Below are positions 5,632-62,967 of a stretch of 64,000 nucleotides of DNA, piece after piece. The stretch is from Natronorubrum thiooxidans. GTDB lineage: Archaea > Halobacteriota > Halobacteria > Halobacteriales > Natrialbaceae. The position numbers were made by a program, and so were the translations under genes. Numbering within the stretch: position 1 is the first letter of the stretch; each line of letters starts with the position of its first letter. Under the pieces are notes generated by a model that ran no database searches, was not told the origin of the DNA, and saw nothing but the letters and a program-made list of their open reading frames with translations. Where the stretch lies: the NCBI RefSeq assembly GCF_900156475.1, contig NZ_FTNR01000010.1, positions 62,001 to 126,000 of the forward strand, written 5' to 3'.

Positions 5632-5712
5632 CGGTTGCAGATTCCGACTGGAACACATAATAGTGTTGGTTTTCGAACATCCTCTCGAACGGGACGAGTG
5701 TCCCGCTGTCTC

Positions 5713-5794
5713 ATACGGACCGCTGTCGTCACTGACCGCCGATCACCGACCCCGCCGCTGGTGATCGGCAGTACATCGGTACAGCAGACCGTAT
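5713..5794 (-). repeat. Stop-codon-anchored palindromic repeat, copy 1
   Basis: An 82-bp imperfect palindrome, symmetric about 5753.5. The outer arms are ATACGG (5789-5794, read on minus) and CCGTAT (5713-5718). The inner 9-bp arms are CCGATCACC/GGTGATCGG (5739-5747, 5760-5768) around a 12-base loop. On the minus strand the element begins with the final A of the amidohydrolase TGA and continues ACGGTCTGCTGTACCGA, the signature shared with the copies near 55-61 kb. As RNA it would form a long 3'-UTR hairpin. Confidence 0.8.
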
Positions 5795-7371
5795 CACTCC
5801 GCACGACCATCGAAGACGACCTCGCCGTCGACTAGCGTCATCGCCACGTCGACCTCGTCGATCCGATCCGCTCGCTCCCACGGCGACGCCTCGAGCACCA
5901 CCATATCAGCCCGGTTGCCGACCGCGAGCGTCCCGAGTCGGTCCTCGTCGAAGCCGGCGTAGGCCGCGCCGCGGGTGTACCCCCGCAGCGCCTCGGTGAC
6001 CGACAGTCGCTGGGCCTCGGTCGGCGCGGTGACCGCATGGTGGACGCCGAGCAGCGGATCGAGTGGCATACAGTCCGAGCCAAAGGCGAGGGGCACGCCG
6101 GCCTCGAGCACCCGTCGGAAGCGATTCGTCCGACGCCGTCGCTCGTCACCGAGTCGCTGGTCGTAGAGGCCGCCCTCGTCGGCCCAGCGATGGAAGTTCG
6201 GCTGCATCGACGCGACGATCCCGGCTTCGGCCATGCGCTCTATATGGTCGTCGGTCGCGAGTTCGACGTGTTCGATCCGGTGGCGTCGAGTGTCGGGTTC
6301 GTCAGTGGCCTCGAGCGCCGACAGCGTCTCTGCGATGGCGTCGTCGCCGATGGCGTGAACGCAGAGTTGGTAGCCCTCGCCGTCGGCGTGGTCGACGACC
6401 GATCGGAGATCGTCGGGGTCGACGACCCACTGGCCGCGTCCGGAATCCGAGTCGGGCGCGTCCATGTCCTCATCGCCGTCCGCGTACGGCTCCTGCAGCT
6501 TCGCCGTCCGGCTGCCGATGCTCCCGTCTGAAAAGGACTTGATCGCGCCCGTCCGCACGCGGTCGGTGCCCGCGTTCGTCGTCAGCCCGACGTCGACGAG
6601 GTGCTCGAGGTGGTCGCTCCAGTAGTCGATCCGAACGCGAAGCGGCAACTCGCCCTCCGCTGCCAGTTCTCGATACACTTGCGGCGCGCTCGAGCCACGA
6701 ACCTTGTCGTGGACGCCGGTGACGCCGCGTTCGACCGCGTGCTGTGTCGCCGCTTCGAGCACGTCCCGTAGTTCCTCGCGGTCCGCGGTCAGCTCTCGCC
6801 TGACGGCTTCGGCGGCGTCCTCGACGGCCACACCCGTCGGTTCGCCGTCGGCCGTGTGGAGGTCGTCTTCCGGAAGTACGTCCGCGAACTGCTCGAGCGC
6901 GACCGAGTTCAGCGAGGCTGTGTGGAGGTCGACGCGCATCGCGACCACGGGGCGCTCCTCGCTGACCGCGTCGAGGTCGGCTCGAGTGAGCGGCTCGCCG
7001 TCTGTTCCGTCCCACGCACTATCGTCGTAGCCGAAGCCGAGAACCCACTTGCGGTCCGGGTCGGCCTCGGCCTGCGTCGAGAGCAACGCGAGACAGTCGT
7101 CGGCGCTGTCGGCCGCCGACAGATCGGCGTGGACCAGATGCTGGCCGAGCTGTTCCATGTGTGTGTGGGCGTCGATAAACCCTGGCAGGACCACCCGGCC
7201 GTCACAGTCGATCACGTCGGTCTCGACGCCTGCGAGGAACTCGAGTTCGTAGCTGTCGCCGAGGCGGACGAGTTCGCCGTCGCGGATCGCGGCTGCCTCG
7301 AAGACGGTATCGGGGTCCGAAAGCGAGTGGATCTCCGCGTTCACGAGCAGGCGGTCGGCAGCGTCAGTCAT
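5794..7371 (-). CDS. Amidohydrolase family protein (YtcJ-like)
   Basis: A 525-residue metal-dependent hydrolase of the amidohydrolase-3 type. The N-terminal metal motif FIDAHTHMEQLG, the central RRHRIEHVEL and the late aspartate in FGSDCMPLDPL are present, as is a C-terminal composite beta domain (RADMVVLEASPWERAD) as in YtcJ and formamidase-like exoenzyme families. The substrate cannot be deduced. The ATG at 7371 (MTDAADRLLVNAEIHSL) was chosen because the 40 extra residues from 7491 look non-coding and lack family similarity. The stop codon is fused to palindromic repeat copy 1. Confidence 0.88.
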   Translation of the reverse strand: MTDAADRLLVNAEIHSLSDPDTVFEAAAIRDGELVRLGDSYELEFLAGVETDVIDCDGRVVLPGFIDAHTHMEQLGQHLVHADLSAADSADDCLALLSTQAEADPDRKWVLGFGYDDSAWDGTDGEPLTRADLDAVSEERPVVAMRVDLHTASLNSVALEQFADVLPEDDLHTADGEPTGVAVEDAAEAVRRELTADREELRDVLEAATQHAVERGVTGVHDKVRGSSAPQVYRELAAEGELPLRVRIDYWSDHLEHLVDVGLTTNAGTDRVRTGAIKSFSDGSIGSRTAKLQEPYADGDEDMDAPDSDSGRGQWVVDPDDLRSVVDHADGEGYQLCVHAIGDDAIAETLSALEATDEPDTRRHRIEHVELATDDHIERMAEAGIVASMQPNFHRWADEGGLYDQRLGDERRRRTNRFRRVLEAGVPLAFGSDCMPLDPLLGVHHAVTAPTEAQRLSVTEALRGYTRGAAYAGFDEDRLGTLAVGNRADMVVLEASPWERADRIDEVDVAMTLVDGEVVFDGRAE

Positions 7372-7512
7372 AGCTGAGAGGCGATGGGCGACCGACAAAA
7401 TGGTTTGGTCCGATCGTGGGGGTAGTACCGAGCGACTGGCGGGGACGACGCCGTCGCTGCTCAAACTGCATCCGAGCGCAAGGTTGACCATACGTCCCGT
7501 GGACCTGCCCGT

Positions 7513-41072: not shown

Positions 41073-41165
41073 CGCTCCGTGGTACCGCACCCGAGGTGAA
41101 AAAACGGGGCCCTCGTATCGCCTGTCGAAAACAGCGATATACTTCCAATGGACAGGGAAAAACCC

Positions 41166-41762
41166 ATGCTCTCGGCTGTGCAATGGCTCGATATGGGCAA
41201 CCGCTCGGACGAGGTGACCGAGAGCCGCGACACCGAGGACCTCCTCGAGGAAACGGACCAGCTCCTCTCGGGTACCGGTCTCGAGGCTGGTACCGACGAG
41301 TCACTGGCGTCGGCCGACGAACCAGCCGACTCCCGCGCCGACACACCAGTCGACGCTCGCTCCGATGAGCCAGCTGACGCTTCGCGGCTTGCCGGGCTCC
41401 GGTCGTGGCTCTCGGTCGACTCCTATTTTTCACCGAAGGCGTTTCTCGCGTTCGTCCTCCTCGTCAGCACTGGACTGCTTGCAGGCGGGATGATGATCCC
41501 GATCGCTGGACGGATCGTCGGTATCTTCGGCGTCGCATTTCTGATCGGCCTCCTGACGGCCAAACGACGGTATCTCGAGATGACTGCCGCCGGGACAGCA
41601 GTCGGCGCGGTCTCGGCAGTGGCCAGTAACGCCTTTCTCGCCGCCGCCGGCTCGTTCCAGACCGTCGTCGCGGTCGGCGTCGCCGTCGGACTGGTCGCCT
41701 CGCTCGTCGGCTACTACTTCGGACGTGACCTGCGAACCGGACTGACCCGCGATATCGAATGA
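41166..41762 (+). CDS. Membrane protein with acidic N-terminus, unknown function
   Basis: About 198 residues. An acidic, low-complexity N-terminal region of about 70 residues (ESRDTEDLLEETDQLLSGTG) is followed by four membrane helices (PKAFLAFVLLVSTGLLAGGMM; IVGIFGVAFLIGLLTA; AAGTAVGAVSAVASNAFLAAAG; VVAVGVAVGLVASLVGYYFG). It resembles haloarchaeal proteins loosely placed in DUF456-like families. A TATA-like element at about 41136-41143 favours the ATG at 41166. Other ATGs at 41148 and 41193 are in frame. Confidence 0.7.
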   Translation: MLSAVQWLDMGNRSDEVTESRDTEDLLEETDQLLSGTGLEAGTDESLASADEPADSRADTPVDARSDEPADASRLAGLRSWLSVDSYFSPKAFLAFVLLVSTGLLAGGMMIPIAGRIVGIFGVAFLIGLLTAKRRYLEMTAAGTAVGAVSAVASNAFLAAAGSFQTVVAVGVAVGLVASLVGYYFGRDLRTGLTRDIE

Positions 41763-41883
41763 GACGAGACGGGTTATTATGATTGTTTCCCGGCTCGACC
41801 GTGAACCCGCGTGCGGTTGTGCCGGACCTGACGGACGACAATTCGTCTGCTGGCTGTCGCTGTATCTGCCGTCAACAACGCCG

Positions 41884-54092: not shown

Positions 54093-55082
54093 GTGATCGA
54101 CCGTCGCACGCTCGGCTTTTTCATCCTCTCGAGTTGCTTCTTCGGGGGGACGTTCGTCGCTGCGAAGGCCGGCCTCGAGTACTTCCCGCCGCTATTGTTC
54201 GTTGCGCTGCGATTCGATATCGCGGCGCTCGTCATGCTGGGATACGTCGCCGTGACCGCCTCGCGTGCGGAACTCCGCCCCGAGACGCGGGGTGACGTCG
54301 TCGGGATTCTCGCGACCGGCGTGCTCGTGATCGGACTGGCGAACGCGCTCATCTTCGTCGGCCAGCAGTACGCGACCAGCGCCGTCGGCGCGATTGTCTT
54401 CAGTCTCAATCCGATCCTGACGCCGGTGTTTGCGGCCGTCCTCCTCTCCGATGAACGCCTCTCGCCCCGTGGTGCGGTCGGGCTGGTTCTCGGCCTTCTC
54501 GGCGTCGCGCTCGTCGTCAGTCCCGACCCTGCAAATCTGCTCGGTGGTGACGCCGTCGGTCGGGCAATCTTGTTTGCCGGTGCGGTCAGTGCGGCACTCG
54601 GAGCCGTCCTCATTCGTCGAGTCAACTCGAGTGCGACGCTCTCGAGTACGGTCCGAATCGCGTGGGGATTGCCCATCGCTGCGGCGCTCTCTCACGGCTT
54701 TGCGCTGTCGGCTGGCGAGTCGATGACCGCGATCACGTGGACCTCGAGTGGACTCGTTGCACTCGCATACGTCAGTCTCGTCGCCGGCGTTCTCGCCTAC
54801 ATCGCCTACTTCGGACTGCTCGAGTCGACGGGCGCGATCCAGGCGAACCTGATCTTCTACGTCGTTCCGGTCGTCGCGACGCTTGGTGGCTGGGCGCTGC
54901 TCGGAGAGACCATCGCTCCGCTGGCGGTCGTCGGGTTCCTGACGATCTTCGCCGGCTTCGCCGTCCTCGGCAGCGAGTCCGTCGACGTTCGGTCGTGGCT
55001 CCCCGAGACGGTGGTCGAGACGCCGGTCACTGATGAGCCATCGTCGGTCACCGAAGAGCCTCGCGGGTTCCGGTCCGACTAG
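54093..55082 (+). CDS. EamA/DMT family transporter
   Basis: 329 residues with ten TMs arranged as two EamA repeats: FFILSSCFFGGTFVAAKAGLE and ATGVLVIGLANALIFVGQQYATSAVGAIVFSLNPILTPVFAAVLLSDERLSP, then the second repeat from about residue 160. These proteins export metabolites or import small solutes. The start is a GTG at 54093, preceded by GAGGTGA, a plausible ribosome-binding site. Substrate unknown. It is divergent from the winged-helix regulator, which probably controls it. Confidence 0.9.
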   Translation: MIDRRTLGFFILSSCFFGGTFVAAKAGLEYFPPLLFVALRFDIAALVMLGYVAVTASRAELRPETRGDVVGILATGVLVIGLANALIFVGQQYATSAVGAIVFSLNPILTPVFAAVLLSDERLSPRGAVGLVLGLLGVALVVSPDPANLLGGDAVGRAILFAGAVSAALGAVLIRRVNSSATLSSTVRIAWGLPIAAALSHGFALSAGESMTAITWTSSGLVALAYVSLVAGVLAYIAYFGLLESTGAIQANLIFYVVPVVATLGGWALLGETIAPLAVVGFLTIFAGFAVLGSESVDVRSWLPETVVETPVTDEPSSVTEEPRGFRSD

Positions 55083-55133
55083 GCGGCAGGTGCAGGCACA
55101 ACCGGCTTATTTTGTGAGCAGATACCGCAGTGC

Positions 55134-55433
55134 ATGTGCGCAACGTTTTCCGAGGCGGATATCGGCAAACCCGTCGAACGGACCGACGGGAAGGTGATCG
55201 GGACCGTTGAGGAACTCGAGGCGGGGGCGGCTCGAGTCGAGCCAGCGCCCGACGTCGTCGATACGATCAAAGCCCGGTTCGGATGGGCCGAGATCGGCGG
55301 CCCGTTCTTGCTCTCGGAAGACGCAGTCCACGAAATCACCGACACCAGAGTCCACCTCAAGGAGGGGTTTTCCAGAGCCGACACGCGACTGGATACCGAA
55401 AGCGAACGCAAACGTCCACAGGCGGATCGATAA
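55134..55433 (+). CDS. PRC-barrel-like small protein
   Basis: 99 residues. A short beta-barrel-type domain: SEADIGKPVERTDGKVIGTVEELEAGAARVEPA, then WAEIGGPFLLSEDAVHEITDT and VHLKEGFSRADTR. This matches haloarchaeal PRC-barrel proteins that bind RNA or protein surfaces (for example with ribosome maturation factors). The C-terminus is basic and disordered. It stands alone, 51 bp after the EamA gene. Confidence 0.77.
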   Translation: MCATFSEADIGKPVERTDGKVIGTVEELEAGAARVEPAPDVVDTIKARFGWAEIGGPFLLSEDAVHEITDTRVHLKEGFSRADTRLDTESERKRPQADR

Positions 55434-55475
55434 CAGCGGTCTCGTTCTCTCCAGTCGTTGCCGGGACAACTATTC

Positions 55476-55520
55476 AGACGGTCTGCTGTCCGCCATTCCC
55501 GGCATGAGCGGGAGTCGTCC
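55476..55520 (+). repeat. Palindromic repeat, partial copy 5
   Basis: Starts AGACGGTCTGCTGTCCGCC and contains the paired TCCCG/CGGGA segment of the family (AGCGGGAGTC). It is shorter than the other copies (about 45 bp) and, unlike them, does not begin at a stop codon. It lies between the PRC-barrel gene and the next small membrane-protein gene. It is probably a degraded member. Confidence 0.55.
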
Positions 55521-55659
55521 TGCGATCGCGCCGAGATATCGTTCCAGCAGAGCGTCCCAGAAAACTCGAATCGACCGGTCGACATATCAAATAGACCAAA
55601 AACCGAACGATGCCATCCATCGCACCGTCAGTTTTGTACTTGCGACCCATAGGTAGGGT

Positions 55660-55992
55660 ATGAGCACGATCTTGCTGGCGGTCCTCGTCGGCATCCCCCT
55701 CGCGTGGCACCTCGGGCTCACGGTGGGTACGTACTACGACGCCGGAAACGTCGGCCTCGAGCCACCGAAGAAGTGGGCTGCAATCACCTTTTGCATCCCG
55801 ATCTTTGGCTTCTTTATTTATCTCTTCGAGCGGAGCGAACTGTCCTACGACCCGGACACCGATCCCTACCGGGGCAACAACTTCAATATCCATCCCTCGC
55901 GGGCCGACGACACACCGCTGCCGTCTCGAGGCGACGATCGACTCCAGATCGACGACGACTGGGACGACGAGGACGACGGAAGCGAGCGGTGA
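55660..55992 (+). CDS. Small membrane protein of unknown function
   Basis: 110 residues. Two hydrophobic segments (LLAVLVGIPLAWHLGLTVGTYY and WAAITFCIPIFGFFIYLF) and an acidic, arginine-containing C-terminal tail (RADDTPLPSRGDDRLQIDDDWDDEDDG). This layout is common among haloarchaeal single-copy membrane proteins of unknown role. No catalytic motif. It is preceded by partial repeat copy 5. Confidence 0.78.
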   Translation: MSTILLAVLVGIPLAWHLGLTVGTYYDAGNVGLEPPKKWAAITFCIPIFGFFIYLFERSELSYDPDTDPYRGNNFNIHPSRADDTPLPSRGDDRLQIDDDWDDEDDGSER

Positions 55993-56007
55993 CCCGTTCG
56001 ATAGCGA

Positions 56008-56253
56008 CTACAGATCGTGTCGCTGCCGACAGTCATCACAGATCAGCCCCGCAAACCACTTCCGTTCGTTACAGCCATGGCAGAGTCGATACCACTCGAA
56101 CTCCAGATCGATGGAGCGACGCTGTTCGGAATCGCACTGACGCTGTCGTTCGGTGGTCGATCCAGCCTGTTGTGGAATCGAATCCGGATCGACCCAGACC
56201 AGCGAACACTCCACCTCGTTCTCCTCCCCCCGCTCCCCTGACCCCGTAGCCAT
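56008..56253 (-). CDS. Possible small zinc-finger protein
   Basis: 81 residues. The C-terminal segment ends LCHGCNERKWFAGLICDDCRQRHDL, with CHGC and CDDC knuckles that could hold one zinc ion. The N-terminal half (MATGSGERGEENEVECSLVWVDPD) is acidic and weakly structured. The only in-frame ATG is at 56253. I do not recognise a family. It may be spurious, but the CxxC pairs are well placed. Confidence 0.5.
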   Translation of the reverse strand: MATGSGERGEENEVECSLVWVDPDSIPQQAGSTTERQRQCDSEQRRSIDLEFEWYRLCHGCNERKWFAGLICDDCRQRHDL

Positions 56254-56290
56254 CTCAACCTGTCACTGTAGCTGAATCATTATAAGTATG

Positions 56291-56391
56291 GGAGACGTAC
56301 CAAATCTGATCAGTACAGTAATCAGTCATTTACCCGGGCTATATCCGGGTACGCGTCAGGGATCGGTCGAAATCGGTACAGCAGACCGCCT
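56291..56391 (-). repeat. Stop-codon-anchored palindromic repeat, copy 2
   Basis: On the minus strand the element starts with the last A of the aldehyde oxidoreductase TGA (56391) and continues GGCGGTCTGCTGTACCGA. A hairpin with 7-bp arms TACCCGG/CCGGGTA (56331-56337, 56345-56351) sits at the centre. The right boundary (about 56291) is set by symmetry and the GTACC/ATC matches, so it is less certain. The 3' half contains TGACTGAT, as in copy 4. Confidence 0.7.
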
Positions 56392-58082
56392 CAGTCGTCT
56401 GCCGGTGTCTCAGTCGCGCCCGTCGCCTCGAGGCGCTCGGCGGGCACGGTGCCGTCGTCATCCCAGCCGCGTTCGTCGTAGTACGCCGCGAGGCCCTCCT
56501 CGAAGCCGGGGATCTCGTAGGGGAGTCGGTCGTCGGCGCGGTCGAAGCCACGCTGGTTGTTGAAGTGGCGCTCGAGCGAGACGACGGTGCCGCCGAGCTC
56601 GAGTAAGTCCTCGTAGTCGGCGTCGAGCAGCGTCTCGAGGCGCTCGGGGCTGACGAAGTCCCGCGAGAACTTACAGAGGACGCCGCTGTCTTTGATGACG
56701 TTGACGTTCTCGAGTTCGATGATTTTCGGTGGCTTGTCGTCGAGTCCCGTTTTGTCGAACGCCCGATCCGCGTCGACGAGCGGGTACTCGTAGGGGTAGA
56801 ACTCGGCGTACATGTGGTCGGCTCCGCGGTTCGAGGTGGCAAAGGCGAGTCCCTGGCCGTTGAGCGTTCGGCCGTCGTGGGCGGGGAACTCCATGCCCTT
56901 TACCGTCCAGTTGTCGACGCCGAGTTCGTCGTGTGCGCGGTCGATCCCTTCTGCGAGCGTGTCGCCGACGCCCTCGCGGTAGGCGATTTTTTTGACGAGG
57001 TCGTGAATGAGTTCGACGTTGCCGAACTCGTCTTCGCTGGCGAGGTAGGCCGCGACGACGTCACCGGCCGAAATCGTGTCGATCCCGTACTCGTCACAGA
57101 GCTTGTTCGATTTCATCACGTCGACGATGTCGTCGACACCCGAGTTCGAGCCGAAGGCCATCACCGTCTCGTACTCCGGGCCTTCGGTCTCGAGGCCGGT
57201 TTCCTCGTCTCTGGTCGGCAGTTTGCAGGCAAACGCACAGGCCGAACAGGTGCCTTTCTTGTACTTTTTCTCCTCGACGCGGTCGCCGCTGATCCCCTCA
57301 GCACCCTCGAAGGAGAGTTCGGAGAAGTACCGCGTCGGCAGGGCCTCGACTTCGTTTGCGTACTCGGTCATCGAGGAGGTTCCCTGTCGTTTCATGATGT
57401 GGTCGGACTGGGCAGCCTCGCCGTGGATCTCCATCTGCAGCGGCGGGATCTCGACCTCGTGAGTCGAATCGCCGTCGAAGGTGATCGCCTTGACGTTTTT
57501 CGACCCGAGAACGGCACCGAGGCCGCCACGGCCGAACGCCCGCTCCTCGGAGGTCATGATCGAGGCGAAACGAACCTGATTCTCGCCACCCGGGCCGATG
57601 ACGACGGTGTGTTCGGCCTCGAGACCGTGTTCGTCTTCGATGTACTCGCAGGTCTCGGGGACGGTTGCTTCCTCAAGCTCCGGCACGGCTTCGAACTCGA
57701 CGCCGTCATCCGTGACGTGGACGATGACGAGATCGTCGCTCGCGCCGGTGATTTCGACGGCGCTGTAGCCCGTGCCAGTGAAGTTCCGCGAGAGGAAGCC
57801 GCCGGCGTTCGAGGAGAGCAAGCCGTCGGTCAGCGGCGAGACACTCGTCGCCGACATCCGGCCGGTAAAACTCATCGTCGAATGCTGGAGCGGCCCCGTC
57901 GCGAAAAACAGGCGATTTTCGGCACCCAGTGGGTCGGCGTCGAACGGCACCCGGTCGTACGCGAGTTTCGTACCGAGCGCACGCCCGCCGAGGAACGACT
58001 CGAGGACGTCGTCGATCGACTCTGTCTCGGCAGTTTGCTCGCCGACGTCGACCGTACACAGTGGTCCCTGGACGTGTTTCAT
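56391..58082 (-). CDS. aor: Aldehyde:ferredoxin oxidoreductase, tungsten-dependent
   Basis: A 563-residue enzyme that oxidises aldehydes to acids with ferredoxin as acceptor. The 4Fe-4S site is CSACAFACKLP (CxxCxxxC, about residue 257) with a later Cys in KDSGVLCKFSRDF. N-terminal motifs FLGGRALGTKLAYDRVP and GENRLFFATGPLQHSTM bind the bis-pterin tungsten cofactor. The length is slightly below the usual 600-620. The ATG at 58082 (MKHVQGPLCTVDV) starts the family homology; the longer open frame to 58547 is antisense-like. Its stop codon is fused to palindromic repeat copy 2. Confidence 0.92.
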   Translation of the reverse strand: MKHVQGPLCTVDVGEQTAETESIDDVLESFLGGRALGTKLAYDRVPFDADPLGAENRLFFATGPLQHSTMSFTGRMSATSVSPLTDGLLSSNAGGFLSRNFTGTGYSAVEITGASDDLVIVHVTDDGVEFEAVPELEEATVPETCEYIEDEHGLEAEHTVVIGPGGENQVRFASIMTSEERAFGRGGLGAVLGSKNVKAITFDGDSTHEVEIPPLQMEIHGEAAQSDHIMKRQGTSSMTEYANEVEALPTRYFSELSFEGAEGISGDRVEEKKYKKGTCSACAFACKLPTRDEETGLETEGPEYETVMAFGSNSGVDDIVDVMKSNKLCDEYGIDTISAGDVVAAYLASEDEFGNVELIHDLVKKIAYREGVGDTLAEGIDRAHDELGVDNWTVKGMEFPAHDGRTLNGQGLAFATSNRGADHMYAEFYPYEYPLVDADRAFDKTGLDDKPPKIIELENVNVIKDSGVLCKFSRDFVSPERLETLLDADYEDLLELGGTVVSLERHFNNQRGFDRADDRLPYEIPGFEEGLAAYYDERGWDDDGTVPAERLEATGATETPADD

Positions 58083-58195
58083 ATGCGATGTAGTGGCATC
58101 CGCGGCTGCAAAATGGTACCGGTTCCTGTCGTCTGAATGTCGGCTCAGCCCGACTGCCGCGGCGGTGTGGTCGATGTGTGACCCGTGGGGCCGAC

Positions 58196-58204
58196 AATAT
58201 ATAC
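58196..58204 (+). promoter_or_regulatory. TATA-like element of the DUF2391 gene
   Basis: AATATATAC is 24-32 bp before the ATG at 58228, fitting a leaderless transcript. It is also 114 bp upstream of the divergent aor start, and CCGA/TCGG flanks give a weak dyad around it. Confidence 0.6.
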
Positions 58205-58227
58205 GATCGGAGTGAGAGACCCGGCGT

Positions 58228-58797
58228 ATGTCACGGTCGACCGATCCCCCCAACGAGGCGACGATGGACGACCTGTACGACCAACTCGAGACACTGGCAG
58301 AGACGGTCGACGATCCCGAGGAGCGAACGGAAGTCCGCCGAACGATGCGGCTGGCCGATCGACTCTCCCACAACGGGATGGTCAGTCGGGTGATCACCGA
58401 GTTCACGGGCAAGGACAAAGCGGAGGCGTTCGTCGGCAGCGTCGTCCTCGGACTGCCCTTACTCGTCGAAGATGGCGTCCTCGAGATCGGTGCGTTCCTC
58501 GCGGCGACTCCGGTGTTTTTCGTCGTGAATCTCGTCCTCGCCGCCACGCTCGTCGTCGGTATTCTCTACGTCGCTGACTTTCGAGACGTCCAGATCCACA
58601 ACCCCTACTTCGGCGTGGTGCCCCGCCGTCCCGTCTGGGTGCTCGGAATCGCGTTCGCGACTGCAACGGTGATGATGACGCTGTGGGGACGCATCGTGTG
58701 GGACGAGCCTTGGATCAACCTCTGTCAAGTGTCAGTGGTCTTTACCGGAATGGCGATCGGTGGCTCGCTGGGCGATATCATCCCGGGCGAGGATTGA
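58228..58797 (+). CDS. DUF2391 family membrane protein
   Basis: 189 residues. A soluble N-terminal helical region (LYDQLETLAETVDDPEERTEVRRTMRLADRL) is followed by four TMs (AFVGSVVLGLPLLVEDGVLEIGAFL; TPVFFVVNLVLAATLVVGILYVADF; PVWVLGIAFATATVMMTLWG; VSVVFTGMAIGGSLGDIIPG). This matches the bacterial and archaeal DUF2391 family (putative integral membrane proteins). Function unknown. Its TGA is fused to palindromic repeat copy 3. Confidence 0.88.
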   Translation: MSRSTDPPNEATMDDLYDQLETLAETVDDPEERTEVRRTMRLADRLSHNGMVSRVITEFTGKDKAEAFVGSVVLGLPLLVEDGVLEIGAFLAATPVFFVVNLVLAATLVVGILYVADFRDVQIHNPYFGVVPRRPVWVLGIAFATATVMMTLWGRIVWDEPWINLCQVSVVFTGMAIGGSLGDIIPGED

Positions 58798-58877
58798 TAC
58801 GGTCTGCTGTACCGACGTACTGATCGGCCCGCAGAGCGGTCGCGGGTGCGCCGGTACTGACGTACAGGAGTCCGTAT
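58797..58877 (+). repeat. Stop-codon-anchored palindromic repeat, copy 3
   Basis: An 81-bp imperfect palindrome centred at 58837. Outer arms are ATACGG/CCGTAT. CTGTAC (58807-58812) pairs with GTACAG (58862-58867), GTAC pairs with GTAC, and CCCGC with GCGGG near the centre. Its first base is the last A of the DUF2391 TGA. Its right end is 99 bp from the convergent HTH_10 gene stop. It shares ACGGTCTGCTGTACCGA with copies 1 and 2. Confidence 0.85.
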
Positions 58878-58976
58878 GACACTATGACCGTCAGTTACTC
58901 GAATCGCGATGCCATCGTCCGCCCAGAGCGCAATTCGCACGGTTGCCGTCGTCAGCGTCACCCTCATCCCGGTCGG

Positions 58977-59636
58977 TCACTCGTCCTCGAGCGCCGAGAG
59001 CGAGTCGACCAGTACCTGCTGGACACCCCGGCGAATCCGATCCGACATCGCCTGCTGGCTGATCTCGAGGTCGGCTGCGAGCTCGTCGAGGGTCACCTCA
59101 CGAGGTGTCTCGAAGTAGCCACGATCGATCGCCAACACCAGCGCCTCCCGTTGCTCCGGCGAGCGGTCGAACACCGGCCCGCGGCGAGGGCGCTGTGTCA
59201 ACGGAACCACCCGCTCGACGTGGATCCGAATCTCGTGGTCCGTACAGTAGGTATAAAACTGAGTGAGCAGCTCGTGTGCCGGAAACCGGATCCGAAAGAG
59301 CCAGCGCTCCCCGTGGTGGGCCTCGAGGAGCGTCGCGTTCGCCTCGACGAGACCATCGATCAGCTGGTTCGGCGGATCGATCGCCCACTCGATGCGATAC
59401 AGCCCGTGCCGATCGATCACGCCGAACTGGTCGATCGACGCGACGGCCGACTGGGAGCGAACGCTCCGTTCGAACGTCTCGAAATCGTCGGCGATCACCC
59501 AGAGGAACGGAATGCTCTGGTCGCCAAGGGGGATGACACGCTCGAGTTCGATCAGTTCGACACCGCTTGCCTGCTCGAGTGTGCCACCAAGTAAGAACTC
59601 CGCCGCATCGACCGTAAATTCGAGGATCGCCACCAT
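58977..59636 (-). CDS. Bacterio-opsin-activator-type HTH_10 regulator
   Basis: 219 residues. An N-terminal sensor-like region (MVAILEFTVDAAEFLLGGTL; GERWLFRIRFPAHELLTQFY) is followed by the HTH_10 (PF04967) DNA-binding domain (EALVLAIDRGYFETPREVTLDELAADLEISQQAMSDRIRRGVQQVL). This is the Bat-type output of haloarchaeal regulators. The ligand is unknown. It is divergent from the MgtE-type transporter genes, 132 bp away, and probably controls them. Confidence 0.88.
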   Translation of the reverse strand: MVAILEFTVDAAEFLLGGTLEQASGVELIELERVIPLGDQSIPFLWVIADDFETFERSVRSQSAVASIDQFGVIDRHGLYRIEWAIDPPNQLIDGLVEANATLLEAHHGERWLFRIRFPAHELLTQFYTYCTDHEIRIHVERVVPLTQRPRRGPVFDRSPEQREALVLAIDRGYFETPREVTLDELAADLEISQQAMSDRIRRGVQQVLVDSLSALEDE

Positions 59637-59768
59637 AGCTAGCGGAGGAGACGGATGGAGATATACTATTGGCGCGTCTCTCGCTGTGTCAGCTGGCGGT
59701 TGCGATCCCCGAGCGCGACCGTCGTCGTTCACGAACGCTTACCATGTCGGAGACGTATTTTGCGACAG

Positions 59769-60341
59769 ATGGTTGGCCACGACTCCGCCGTCGACGTCTA
59801 CAAGCAGGCGTTGCCGGTTATCCTCATCAGCCTCGTGGCAGGGCTGTTCGCGGGAACGTTACTCGGGACCGAAACCATGCGCGAGGGAATCGAGAGCGTC
59901 CCCGGGATCCTGTTGTTGCTTCCCGCGTTTCTCGCGACGCGCGGTGGCGTCTACGGCTCGCTGGGGGCTCGGCTTTCGAGTGGGCTCCACCAGGGGCTGA
60001 TCGATCCCCACTTCGAGTGGAACGATCGCCTACGAAACGCGATCATCGCCTCGTTTCTCAACGGGATGATCGTCTCGGTGTTCATCGCGGTGCTCGCGTG
60101 GGGTGTCTTGCTCGTGCTCGGACGGGACGGCAGCCTGCTCGAGTTAGTGATCATCCTCTCGATCGCCGCGCTGTTGAGTGCGTTCGCGATGCTCGGGGTA
60201 CTGCTCACGGTGATCTTCAAGGGGTATCGACGGGGGCTCGACCCGGACAACGTCATCGGCCCGGTCGTAACGACCGTCGGTGACGTCTTCGGCGTCGTGT
60301 TCTTGCTCATCGGCATCAGCGTTGCGGGGGCAGTCCTGTGA
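59769..60341 (+). CDS. MgtE-type transporter, first membrane half
   Basis: 190 residues comprising one MgtE integral membrane domain of five TMs (VYKQALPVILISLVAGLFAGTL; PGILLLLPAFLATRGGVYGSLGARL). The cytoplasmic N- and CBS domains of bacterial MgtE are absent. Each MgtE protomer normally has five TMs and forms a dimer, so this and the overlapping second gene probably make a heterodimeric Mg2+ (or other divalent cation) transporter, as in the fused eukaryotic SLC41. The start is ATG at 59769. Confidence 0.88.
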   Translation: MVGHDSAVDVYKQALPVILISLVAGLFAGTLLGTETMREGIESVPGILLLLPAFLATRGGVYGSLGARLSSGLHQGLIDPHFEWNDRLRNAIIASFLNGMIVSVFIAVLAWGVLLVLGRDGSLLELVIILSIAALLSAFAMLGVLLTVIFKGYRRGLDPDNVIGPVVTTVGDVFGVVFLLIGISVAGAVL

Positions 60342-60937
60342 GTACCAGCAACGACGCCGGACACGACGAGGATCTGGAGGACGAACTAACGGAGTGGACC
60401 GTCCCGAACATCGTCACGACACTCGTCCCACTGCTCATTGGGCTCTCGATCCTGCAGATGGTCTCGGGTACCGTCCTCGAGACGTTCGAAGAACAGTTGC
60501 TCGAACACCCCGCACTGTTGATCATCGTTCCAGTGATGATCGGGACCGCCGGCAACCTTGGCTCAATCATGTGTTCGCGGCTCTCGACCCAGCTCCATCT
60601 GGGGACCCTCGAGTTCTCGCCGACGAACGCCAACATCCAGGCTAACGTCGCCGCGATCATGGGACTTGCAGCCACCGTGTTCGTCCTGCTTGGTTTCGCC
60701 TCGTGGGCCATCGGCCGTGCACTCGGCGGCACGCTGGGGCTCGCCCCACTCCTCGTTATCACGATCGTCAGCGGGATGTTGCTCGCCGTCTGGGTCGTCA
60801 TCGTCAGCACCGTCTCGGTGTATGGCTCCTACCGACTCGGCTACGATCCCGACGATACGACGATCCCCGTCGTCACGAACATCTGTGACATCACGGGCGT
60901 CATCATCCTCTTTGCTGTGGTCTCGGTCGTCCTCTAA
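60338..60937 (+). CDS. MgtE-type transporter, second membrane half
   Basis: 199 residues with a second five-TM MgtE domain (TTLVPLLIGLSILQMVSGTVL; LLIIVPVMIGTAGNLGSIMCSRLSTQL; NIQANVAAIMGLAATVFVLLG). The GTG start overlaps the first half's TGA by four bases. IGTAGNLGSIMCSRLSTQLH corresponds to the conserved P/G-rich pore motif of the family. The stop codon TAA is fused to palindromic repeat copy 4. Confidence 0.88.
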   Translation: MSTSNDAGHDEDLEDELTEWTVPNIVTTLVPLLIGLSILQMVSGTVLETFEEQLLEHPALLIIVPVMIGTAGNLGSIMCSRLSTQLHLGTLEFSPTNANIQANVAAIMGLAATVFVLLGFASWAIGRALGGTLGLAPLLVITIVSGMLLAVWVVIVSTVSVYGSYRLGYDPDDTTIPVVTNICDITGVIILFAVVSVVL

Positions 60938-61021
60938 GACGGTCTGCTATCGCGGTGTCCCAGCACAGGACGGGTCGTGGGTGTGCCGGCACTGACTGAT
61001 AGGCGAGCGGGAGTCCGGTCT
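60937..61021. repeat. Stop-codon-anchored palindromic repeat, copy 4 (stop to stop)
   Basis: An 85-bp member whose first base is the last A of the MgtE-half TAA and whose last base is the first base of the convergent acyl-CoA synthetase stop. It begins AGACGGTCTGCTATCGCGG and ends GGAGTCCGGTCT. It includes GTGCCGGCAC, a perfect palindrome, and TGACTGAT shared with copy 2. It occupies the entire space between two convergent genes. Confidence 0.85.
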
Positions 61022-62967
61022 CAGGAATCCGCGTAGATGCGATCGACGCGGTCTTCAAACGCCTCGAGGATGACGCGGCGCTTCTTTTTCATCGTCGGCG
61101 TCAGCATCTCGTTTTCTTCGGTGAACTCCCGCGGAACGAGTTCGAACCGTTTGATGGTCTCGTGTTTCTCGAAGTTCTCGTTGACGCGATCGACTTCTTG
61201 CTGGATGTACTCACGAACACGGTCGTCATCACACATCGCCTGGGGAGCATCGGGGAGGTCGATCCCCTCCGTCTCGGCCCACTCGTGGAGGTGATCCGAG
61301 TTTGGCACCAGCAACGCGCCGATGAACTTCTCGCCGTCGCCGACGACCAGACACTGCTCGATGATCTCGCTGGCCGCGAAGGCGTCCTCGATCGGGGCTG
61401 GGGCGACGTTTTTCCCCGTCGAAAGCACCATGATCTGCTTTGCGCGCTCGCGGAACTCAAGGTAGCCGTCGGGCCGCTGGTGGATGATGTCACCCGTTCG
61501 GAACCACCCATCGTCTGTGAACGCACCCGTGGTCGCACCGGGTTTATTCCAGTAGCCCTGTGTGACGTTTGGTCCCTTGACGAGGAGTTCGCCGACCTCG
61601 CCAGGATCGTCCGTAAACGCTGCTTGATCGGCAACGCTCTCGTCGATTGTCACGTCGACGCCGGGCAATGGCAGCCCGATGGTCCCGATCTTGACCGCCT
61701 CGGGTGGGTTCGTCGAAACGACCGGCGACGTCTCCGTGAGCCCATATCCTTCATAGATTGGCAGCCCCATCGCGTGATAGAGCTGGCAGAGGTCCGGCGA
61801 GAGACTGCCGCCGCCGCTGATCAGCAGTTCGATCTCCCCGCCGAGGGCCTCTCGAACGGTCGAGAAGACCAGTGTATCCGCGAGTTTCTGTTTGGCGTTC
61901 AGGACTGGGCCGGGCGAATCGGCTTGCTGGTACCTGACGCCGACGTCTGTGGCCCATTCGAAGATCCGTTTTTTGACCCCCGACTCGCTGGCCTGCTCGC
62001 GAATCGCGTCGTAGATCTTCTCGTACACTCGCGGCACGCTCGTCGCCGTCGTTGGCTGAACGGTGCCGAAATCCTCCTGCAGCGTGTCCGGGTTCTCCGC
62101 ATAGGCGACGCACGCGCCGCTTGCAAACAGGACGAAGTGACCTGCCGTCCGCTCGAAGACGTGAGCCAGCGGGAGATACGACACTGCCAGCGACTCCTCG
62201 TCGAGTGACGGAACGTCGTCCGGTTTGTCCGGCCGGGGCGCGAACCGTTTTCGGATCGCGTTGACGTTCGACCGGAAGTTCCAGTGGGTGAGTTGGACGC
62301 CTTTCGGCTGGCCCGTCGTCCCACTCGTGTAGATCAGACTCGCTAGATCGTCCAGTTCCGGGGCGTCGACGCGCTCCTGGTAGGCCTCGAGGTCGAACAC
62401 CGCCTCGCCGCGGTCGTAGACGTCGTCTAGCGTATAGATGTCCTCGCGGTTGTCGTACCCCGAAAGCTCGTCTATCGAGACGATGAACTCGAGGTCGAGG
62501 TCGTCTTCGACCTCGAGAACGGTCTCCAGAAGCGACTCGTTTTCGACGACGACAGCGGTTGCGTCGGGATCATCGAGCAGGTAGGCGACCTGACTGGGTG
62601 AGGAGCTGTCGTACACCGTCGTGACGACGGCCCCAGCACCGAGGAGGGCGAAATCACACTGTGCCCACTCCATCCGGGTGTTGGCGAAGATGCCGACGCG
62701 GTCACCCAGTTCGATACCGAGATCGTGAAAGCCCGCCGAGAGGTTGCGGACGATATCACGCATCTCGAGGTAGGAGATCGGTCGAAAGCTGCCGGGCGTC
62801 GCGGCCGGCAGAACCGACGGCGTCAGCGATCGATCGTAGACGCCACCCTTGTACTTCTGGGCCGGACGATTGGCGTTTCGCTCGGCCGTCTCCTCGAACA
62901 GCCGCCCGAGTGTCGTCTTCCCGATGACCTCGTCGTCGTACTCTCGTTCGGCATCCTGCCAGTCCAT
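61021..62967 (-). CDS. Long-chain acyl-CoA synthetase (AMP-forming)
   Basis: A 648-residue ligase that activates fatty acids via an acyl-adenylate. The nucleotide signature LIYTSGTTGQPKGVQLTHWN is present, with AVSYLPLAHVFERTAGH, GYGLTETSPVVSTNPP and the C-terminal GWFRTGDIIHQRPDGYLEFRERAKQIMVLSTGKNVAPAPIE containing the hinge Lys region. Length and the long N-terminal part match bacterial and archaeal FadD-type enzymes. Chain length specificity is not deducible. It supports beta-oxidation or membrane-lipid remodelling. Confidence 0.94.
   Translation of the reverse strand: MDWQDAEREYDDEVIGKTTLGRLFEETAERNANRPAQKYKGGVYDRSLTPSVLPAATPGSFRPISYLEMRDIVRNLSAGFHDLGIELGDRVGIFANTRMEWAQCDFALLGAGAVVTTVYDSSSPSQVAYLLDDPDATAVVVENESLLETVLEVEDDLDLEFIVSIDELSGYDNREDIYTLDDVYDRGEAVFDLEAYQERVDAPELDDLASLIYTSGTTGQPKGVQLTHWNFRSNVNAIRKRFAPRPDKPDDVPSLDEESLAVSYLPLAHVFERTAGHFVLFASGACVAYAENPDTLQEDFGTVQPTTATSVPRVYEKIYDAIREQASESGVKKRIFEWATDVGVRYQQADSPGPVLNAKQKLADTLVFSTVREALGGEIELLISGGGSLSPDLCQLYHAMGLPIYEGYGLTETSPVVSTNPPEAVKIGTIGLPLPGVDVTIDESVADQAAFTDDPGEVGELLVKGPNVTQGYWNKPGATTGAFTDDGWFRTGDIIHQRPDGYLEFRERAKQIMVLSTGKNVAPAPIEDAFAASEIIEQCLVVGDGEKFIGALLVPNSDHLHEWAETEGIDLPDAPQAMCDDDRVREYIQQEVDRVNENFEKHETIKRFELVPREFTEENEMLTPTMKKKRRVILEAFEDRVDRIYADS

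Follow-up and report, generated by a model that had tools for sequence, protein, structure and literature searches.

A MITE-like palindromic element of haloarchaea, apparently inserted at T(G/C)A triplets and most often at stop codons

Introduction

Tourist MITEs with PIF/Harbinger and members of the IS5 superfamily (IS1031/IS427) share a preference for symmetric T-N-A triplets, which become a 3-bp duplication upon insertion. Prokaryotic MITEs (review PMC10969869; MITEs of Haloquadratum walsbyi, PMC3119063) are short, non-coding elements with terminal inverted repeats and a target duplication, present in many copies and mostly intergenic; stop codons are not mentioned in the review PMC10969869. 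For the PIF/Harbinger elements, a 3-bp duplication is given in PMC2213677. Haloquadratum walsbyi also carries small mobile repeats (SMR-A/B; HqIRS41, 80 bp), reported to insert into other mobile elements without duplicating the target; IS605-type PATEs, common in Haloquadratum, likewise produce no target duplication (PMC3119063). REP and REPIN sequences (PMC3116915, PMC12306157) are high-copy extragenic palindromes often located near gene 3' ends. REPs lie at varied distances past the stop, approximately 11% of those identified in E. coli by PMC12306157 being within 15 nt. In the searchable sources, a scope that leaves out most subscription journals and ISfinder, we found no description of the element family analyzed herein or of stop-targeting MITEs.

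Results

Copies in the window

The window, that is, the whole 64-kb stretch of DNA analyzed, contains 4 recognizable and 2 decayed copies of a palindromic element of about 80 bp. The sequence ACGGTCTGCTGTACCGA, allowing up to 3 mismatches, matches the window 4 times against 0.16 expected, one of the matches being the right arm of the element at 55477. The copies and their surroundings are as follows, with covariance-model scores in bits:

5711-5713 and 5794-5796: TCA duplication around the element at 5714-5793
5714-5793, minus strand: intact element, 80 bp, 89.4 bits
5794-5796, minus strand: TGA ending the amidohydrolase ORF (5794-7491, minus strand); one of the two duplicated triplets
41768-41847, plus strand: decayed element, 32.0 bits, E 2e-6; 5 bp beyond the TGA stop (41760-41762) of ORF 41148-41762
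55477-55556, minus strand: older element, 80 bp, 57.8 bits, away from any gene stop; flanked by TCA on the left (55474-55476) and CCA on the right
56314-56390, minus strand: decayed one-armed element, end motif with 1 mismatch, 14.2 bits (alone not significant)
56391-56393, minus strand: TGA of the aldehyde ferredoxin oxidoreductase (AFOR) gene, adjoining the clear end of the preceding element, the other arm of which is lost
58795-58797 and 58877-58879: TGA flanks of the element at 58798-58876
58795-58797, plus strand: TGA ending the DUF2391 gene (58228-58797); one of the two duplicated triplets
58798-58876, plus strand: intact element, 79 bp, 70.5 bits
60938-61020, plus strand: degenerate element with a degenerate right arm, 20.4 bits, located where the genes for the MgtE half (TAA 60935-60937) and an AMP-binding enzyme converge
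61021-61023: TCA, the TGA stop of the AMP-binding enzyme on the minus strand, adjoining the preceding element

An earlier note on this DNA had listed 5 copies, 4 of them at stop codons. All 5 were confirmed, and the 4 contacts (amidohydrolase, AFOR, DUF2391, and MgtE) hold, the copy at 55477 being the exception; the decayed sixth copy at 41768-41847 had escaped attention. The MgtE channel domain next to one copy is seemingly split between 2 overlapping ORFs (59655-60341 and 60338-60937; window positions 59655-60937), and relatives are similar in DNA.

Copy number and distribution

In the 4.21-Mb haloarchaeal draft genome to which the window belongs, ACGGTCTGCTGTACC with up to 2 mismatches occurs 110 times, compared to 20 occurrences of the reversed control pattern. 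Together with the count in the window, this bears out the earlier view that the palindromic repeats form a genuine family beyond chance. A covariance-model search of the same genome, capped at 150 scored candidates, gave at least 149 matches counted per strand, hence at least 75 places. The element is present in all 10 genomes searched in the genus and, at a strict cut-off, in 42 of 146 sampled Halobacteriales genomes, with the family of the host being the richest; a carrier genome often has dozens of copies. When one genome per species was searched with a strict palindrome pattern (84,980 GTDB species), at least 80 matches were obtained, and all 80 of those listed are haloarchaeal. One genome (G004) displays a burst of near-identical copies. 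Neither the element nor its MgtE neighbor was found in IMG/VR, and GenBank phages yielded only chance matches to the element. At one place, 2 element matches (L033 2000-2079 and G000:C22:489525-489596) directly abut each other, which suggests that an existing copy received a second one, either alongside or within it.

Anatomy and fold

The consensus derived from aligned copies is about 80 bp long, (T/G)ACGGTCTGCTGTACCGA...GACAGCAGTCCGT(A/C), and is a palindrome nearly from end to end. Sequence-conserved terminal inverted repeats of about 14 bp, (T/G)ACGGWYTGCTGTA, are followed inward by a linker without pairing, then by a 13-bp inner stem and a short loop. Among 35 diverse 80-nt copies, little pairing is seen between positions 15-22 and the matching positions of the other arm. 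The inner stem varies in sequence while its pairing is kept: 11 of the 13 pairs have changes on both sides, and 88.5% of cells are paired versus at most 47% when the partners are slid by 1 to 3 positions. Across the whole structure, 89 cells are changed on both sides versus 31.6 after shuffling. The conserved end sequences fit recognition by a protein, and conservation of the inner pairing indicates that folding of the element probably matters; alternatively, the palindrome could be kept by repeated template-switch repair between the arms. The loop is reversed in some copies (L009, L022, and L032 versus L024; CACCGACCCGTCTCTGGTG versus CACCAGAGACGGGGTCGGTG), as would result from an inversion of the core between the arms.

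RNA folding, which the earlier note had recommended for the 81-bp palindrome, distinguishes between the copies in the window: those at 5714-5793 (80 nt; z = -4.8) and 58798-58876 (79 nt; z = -3.2) are strong palindromes, whereas the copies at 60937 and 56391 fold no better than shuffled sequences. The proposed role as a terminator finds no support in the consensus, in which no T-run follows the hairpin; instead, TGA or TCA comes next in most copies. As for a structured RNA, no Rfam family was matched, with sub-threshold chance matches confined to other parts of the 55000-61500 region, but the compensatory changes make a structural role of the inner stem, in DNA or RNA, possible.

Insertion with a 3-bp duplication

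The triplets flanking the element are, as a rule, direct repeats. In the host genome, 45 of 78 copies have identical flanking triplets, including 22 TGA/TGA and 21 TCA/TCA pairs and no mixed TGA/TCA pair. The same is true of 49 of 60 elements from 8 other genomes, which were chosen by internal score alone and include 1 mixed pair, and of 63 of 75 elements from named GTDB haloarchaea, 62 of these pairs being TGA or TCA and none mixed. The 3 samples together thus contain 152 direct TGA..TGA or TCA..TCA pairs versus a single mixed one. The latter belongs to an element (L190, genome G033) that lies between 2 convergent genes and touches both stops. Since mixed flanks are absent from the host genome, a mere extension of the palindrome, which would make the flanks inverted rather than direct repeats, was rejected.

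Empty sites were sought in 800 kb of a related genome, G002, which around the compared loci is mostly 80% to 90% identical to the host genome. Precise empty sites were found at 5 loci. At L025, GGAC-TGA-[79 bp]-TGA-GACGG corresponds to GGAC-TGA-GACGG in G002; at L064, CTTA-[79 bp]-TCAG corresponds to CTCAG, one duplicate having since mutated; the remaining 3 are L052, L056, and L077. At the DUF2391 stop, the element is absent from G002, G001, G008, and G009, and the stop is retained (TGA in G002 and TAA in G001). The genes adjoining the copies are unrelated to one another, as the earlier note had remarked. In G007, a different element occupies the DUF2391 stop (L132/L124), and at the L057 locus the host genome and G002 carry different element subfamilies at the same stop. 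Such cases suggest recurrent insertion at strong targets or replacement.

The occupied and empty sites at the 5 G002 loci and at DUF2391 constitute the evidence of mobility: the element is a MITE-like mobile element inserted at a pre-existing triplet with a 3-bp duplication. The earlier suggestion of a MITE-like nature is accordingly upheld by the terminal inverted repeats, the duplication, the high copy number, and the empty sites. The accompanying idea that stop codons are supplied by the element is rejected. In relatives that lack the element, a stop is already in place at that position, and because the stop predates insertion, the element duplicates it rather than supplying it.

Stop-codon bias and target motif

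Based on gene calls from a crude codon-model caller, 27 of 45 elements in the host genome and 30 of 49 in 8 other genomes are in exact contact with a called stop, in both cases against 7% of non-coding TGA/TCA triplets, as are 42 of 75 in named GTDB haloarchaea against 10%; overall, the stop-contacting share is about 55% to 65% versus 7% to 10%. In an unselected survey of 800 kb of G002, 13 of 19 elements are located at a stop, 1 of the 13 after a one-base shift of the model end, and 2 plasmid copies also lie at stops according to the deposited annotation. The stop bias anticipated in the earlier note is therefore present genome-wide, but its source appears to be largely the target. The target context approximates GNCTSAGNC, is symmetric, and is found at non-stop insertions too. 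GAC is the last codon at 16 of 42 occupied stops (38%) compared to 37 of 311 other TGA stops (12%).

We rebuilt the empty spacers and weighted all TGA/TCA triplets by a motif learned from non-stop insertions only. In convergent spacers, stops were hit 36 times, with 35.4 hits expected from the motif. Because observed and expected values nearly coincide, the motif suffices for the stop bias where promoters are absent. In co-directional spacers, stops were hit 50 times versus about 40 expected (z ~3.9), an excess plausibly due to purifying selection that removes copies landing close to the following gene. In large part, the stop bias thus seems to follow from the choice of target sequence combined with selection.

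Search for an autonomous partner

None of the DDE_Tnp_1 genes of the host genome and G004 has the ends of the element. DUF4096 was not found in 27 carriers, nor was DDE_Tnp_4 in 16 carriers. Among the G004 unpaired ends and the remaining loci examined, long elements with paired ends were likewise not detected. A 1.1-kb candidate autonomous element (L280) proved to be 2 separate 80-bp elements flanking an ordinary ORF.

Discussion

We consider it likely, with a probability of about 0.86, that this is a MITE-like element mobilized in trans into targets resembling GNCTSAGNC, and that the motif, duplication of the stop, and selection together produce its apparent fusion to stop codons. The enzyme would be supplied by another locus, with a DDE transposase as the likeliest candidate; it would cut the target with a 3-bp stagger and paste the element into it. 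Gene ends would provide the motif, for example, where GAC precedes TGA; duplication of the TGA would leave the gene undamaged, and selection would remove copies that land inside genes or promoters. A DDE enzyme of this kind is suggested solely by the duplication and the symmetry of the target. Staggered cuts of 3 bp are made by the IS5 superfamily (IS1031/IS427-like) and by eukaryotic PIF/Harbinger with Tourist MITEs. Points against this account are that the searches described above yielded no autonomous element with these ends, that the co-directional spacers keep an excess of stops, and that a two-ended transposition complex would have very little room on 80 bp; speculatively, folding of the palindrome into a cruciform or hairpin may join both ends of so short an element. 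A stronger version, in which the folded element is itself the transposition substrate, with ends read by sequence and united by the pairing-conserved inner hairpin (cruciform), stops serving as the main harbor and the transposase belonging to none of the kinds searched, seems to us unlikely.

The stability of the hairpin, the covariation of its inner stem, and the location of about 60% of copies directly after stops could also be expected of a host-encoded 3'-end module, a terminator or mRNA-stabilizing hairpin inherited vertically and selected at gene ends. We regard such a module as highly improbable: insertion is evident from the precise empty sites and 3-bp duplications, the adjoining genes are unrelated and have orthologues without the element, a T-run is absent, the 2 orientations are nearly equal in number (22 versus 21), about 40% of copies lie away from stops, and the stop excess in convergent spacers disappears once the target motif is considered. 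That last result also bears on active sensing of stop codons or gene ends by the transposase or integration complex (for example, through termination, transcription, or long gene-end context) beyond the motif. The stop share well above background, the leftover co-directional excess, and the presence of different elements at the same stop in 2 species (DUF2391 in the host genome and G007; L057 in the host genome and G002) speak for active sensing; yet a motif not derived from stops predicts the share in convergent spacers, where promoters purge nothing, and occurs as well at the approximately 40% of insertions off stops. Given the within-spacer motif test, active stop recognition is unnecessary, and we judge it quite unlikely.

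A full-length palindrome of small size with a covarying inner stem also recalls single-strand (HUH/Y1) hairpin elements such as REPINs or PATEs, or an attC-like site, moved by a RAYT/IS200-type enzyme or a tyrosine recombinase, and the abundance of IS605-type PATEs in Haloquadratum lends this reading some plausibility. A 3-bp direct duplication of a symmetric target is, however, unexpected of HUH transposition, the ends are true inverted repeats, and the GTAG/CGTC tag is not seen in the consensus, making such an origin very unlikely.

If mobilization in trans is correct, the family offers a simple, testable case of a selfish element that spares its host through a short symmetric target matching common gene endings. 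GAC-TGA is a common ending of genes for acidic haloarchaeal proteins and, combined with stop duplication, would make insertion silent and allow spread without gene breakage. Its wide occurrence in Halobacteriales may matter for annotation and comparative genomics as well as for the mapping of 3' ends. Given the pairing-conserved core of so tiny a mobile element, DNA folding may contribute to its movement, or the transcribed hairpin may alter mRNA 3' ends.

Comparison with known systems

Each of the systems considered shares some features with the element. REPs and REPINs resemble it as high-copy extragenic palindromes, often near gene 3' ends, but REPs lack such a duplication, whereas in this family it is the stop codon that serves as target and is duplicated, and in place of the GTAG/CGTC tag the element has the ends (T/G)ACGG..CCGT(A/C) and the T(G/C)A duplication. 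PATEs have neither terminal inverted repeats nor target duplication; the element has both. The SMRs of Haloquadratum are likewise haloarchaeal, about 80 to 110 bp long, bounded by inverted terminal repeats, and without a known parent transposon, but the element differs from them in its 3-bp duplication and insertion at gene ends. With Tourist/PIF-Harbinger and IS1031/IS427, it has in common a symmetric T-N-A target duplicated over 3 bp, but its ends differ, the middle base is G or C, and no related transposase was detected in carriers by the DUF4096 and DDE_Tnp_4 searches. Like prokaryotic MITEs, it is short, non-coding, and mostly intergenic, with inverted repeats, target-site duplication, many copies, and occupied and empty sites. 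It differs from them in that its parent transposon was not found, in being only about 80 bp long and almost wholly palindromic, with a structure-conserved core, and in its T(G/C)A target, for which stop codons are the commonest site.
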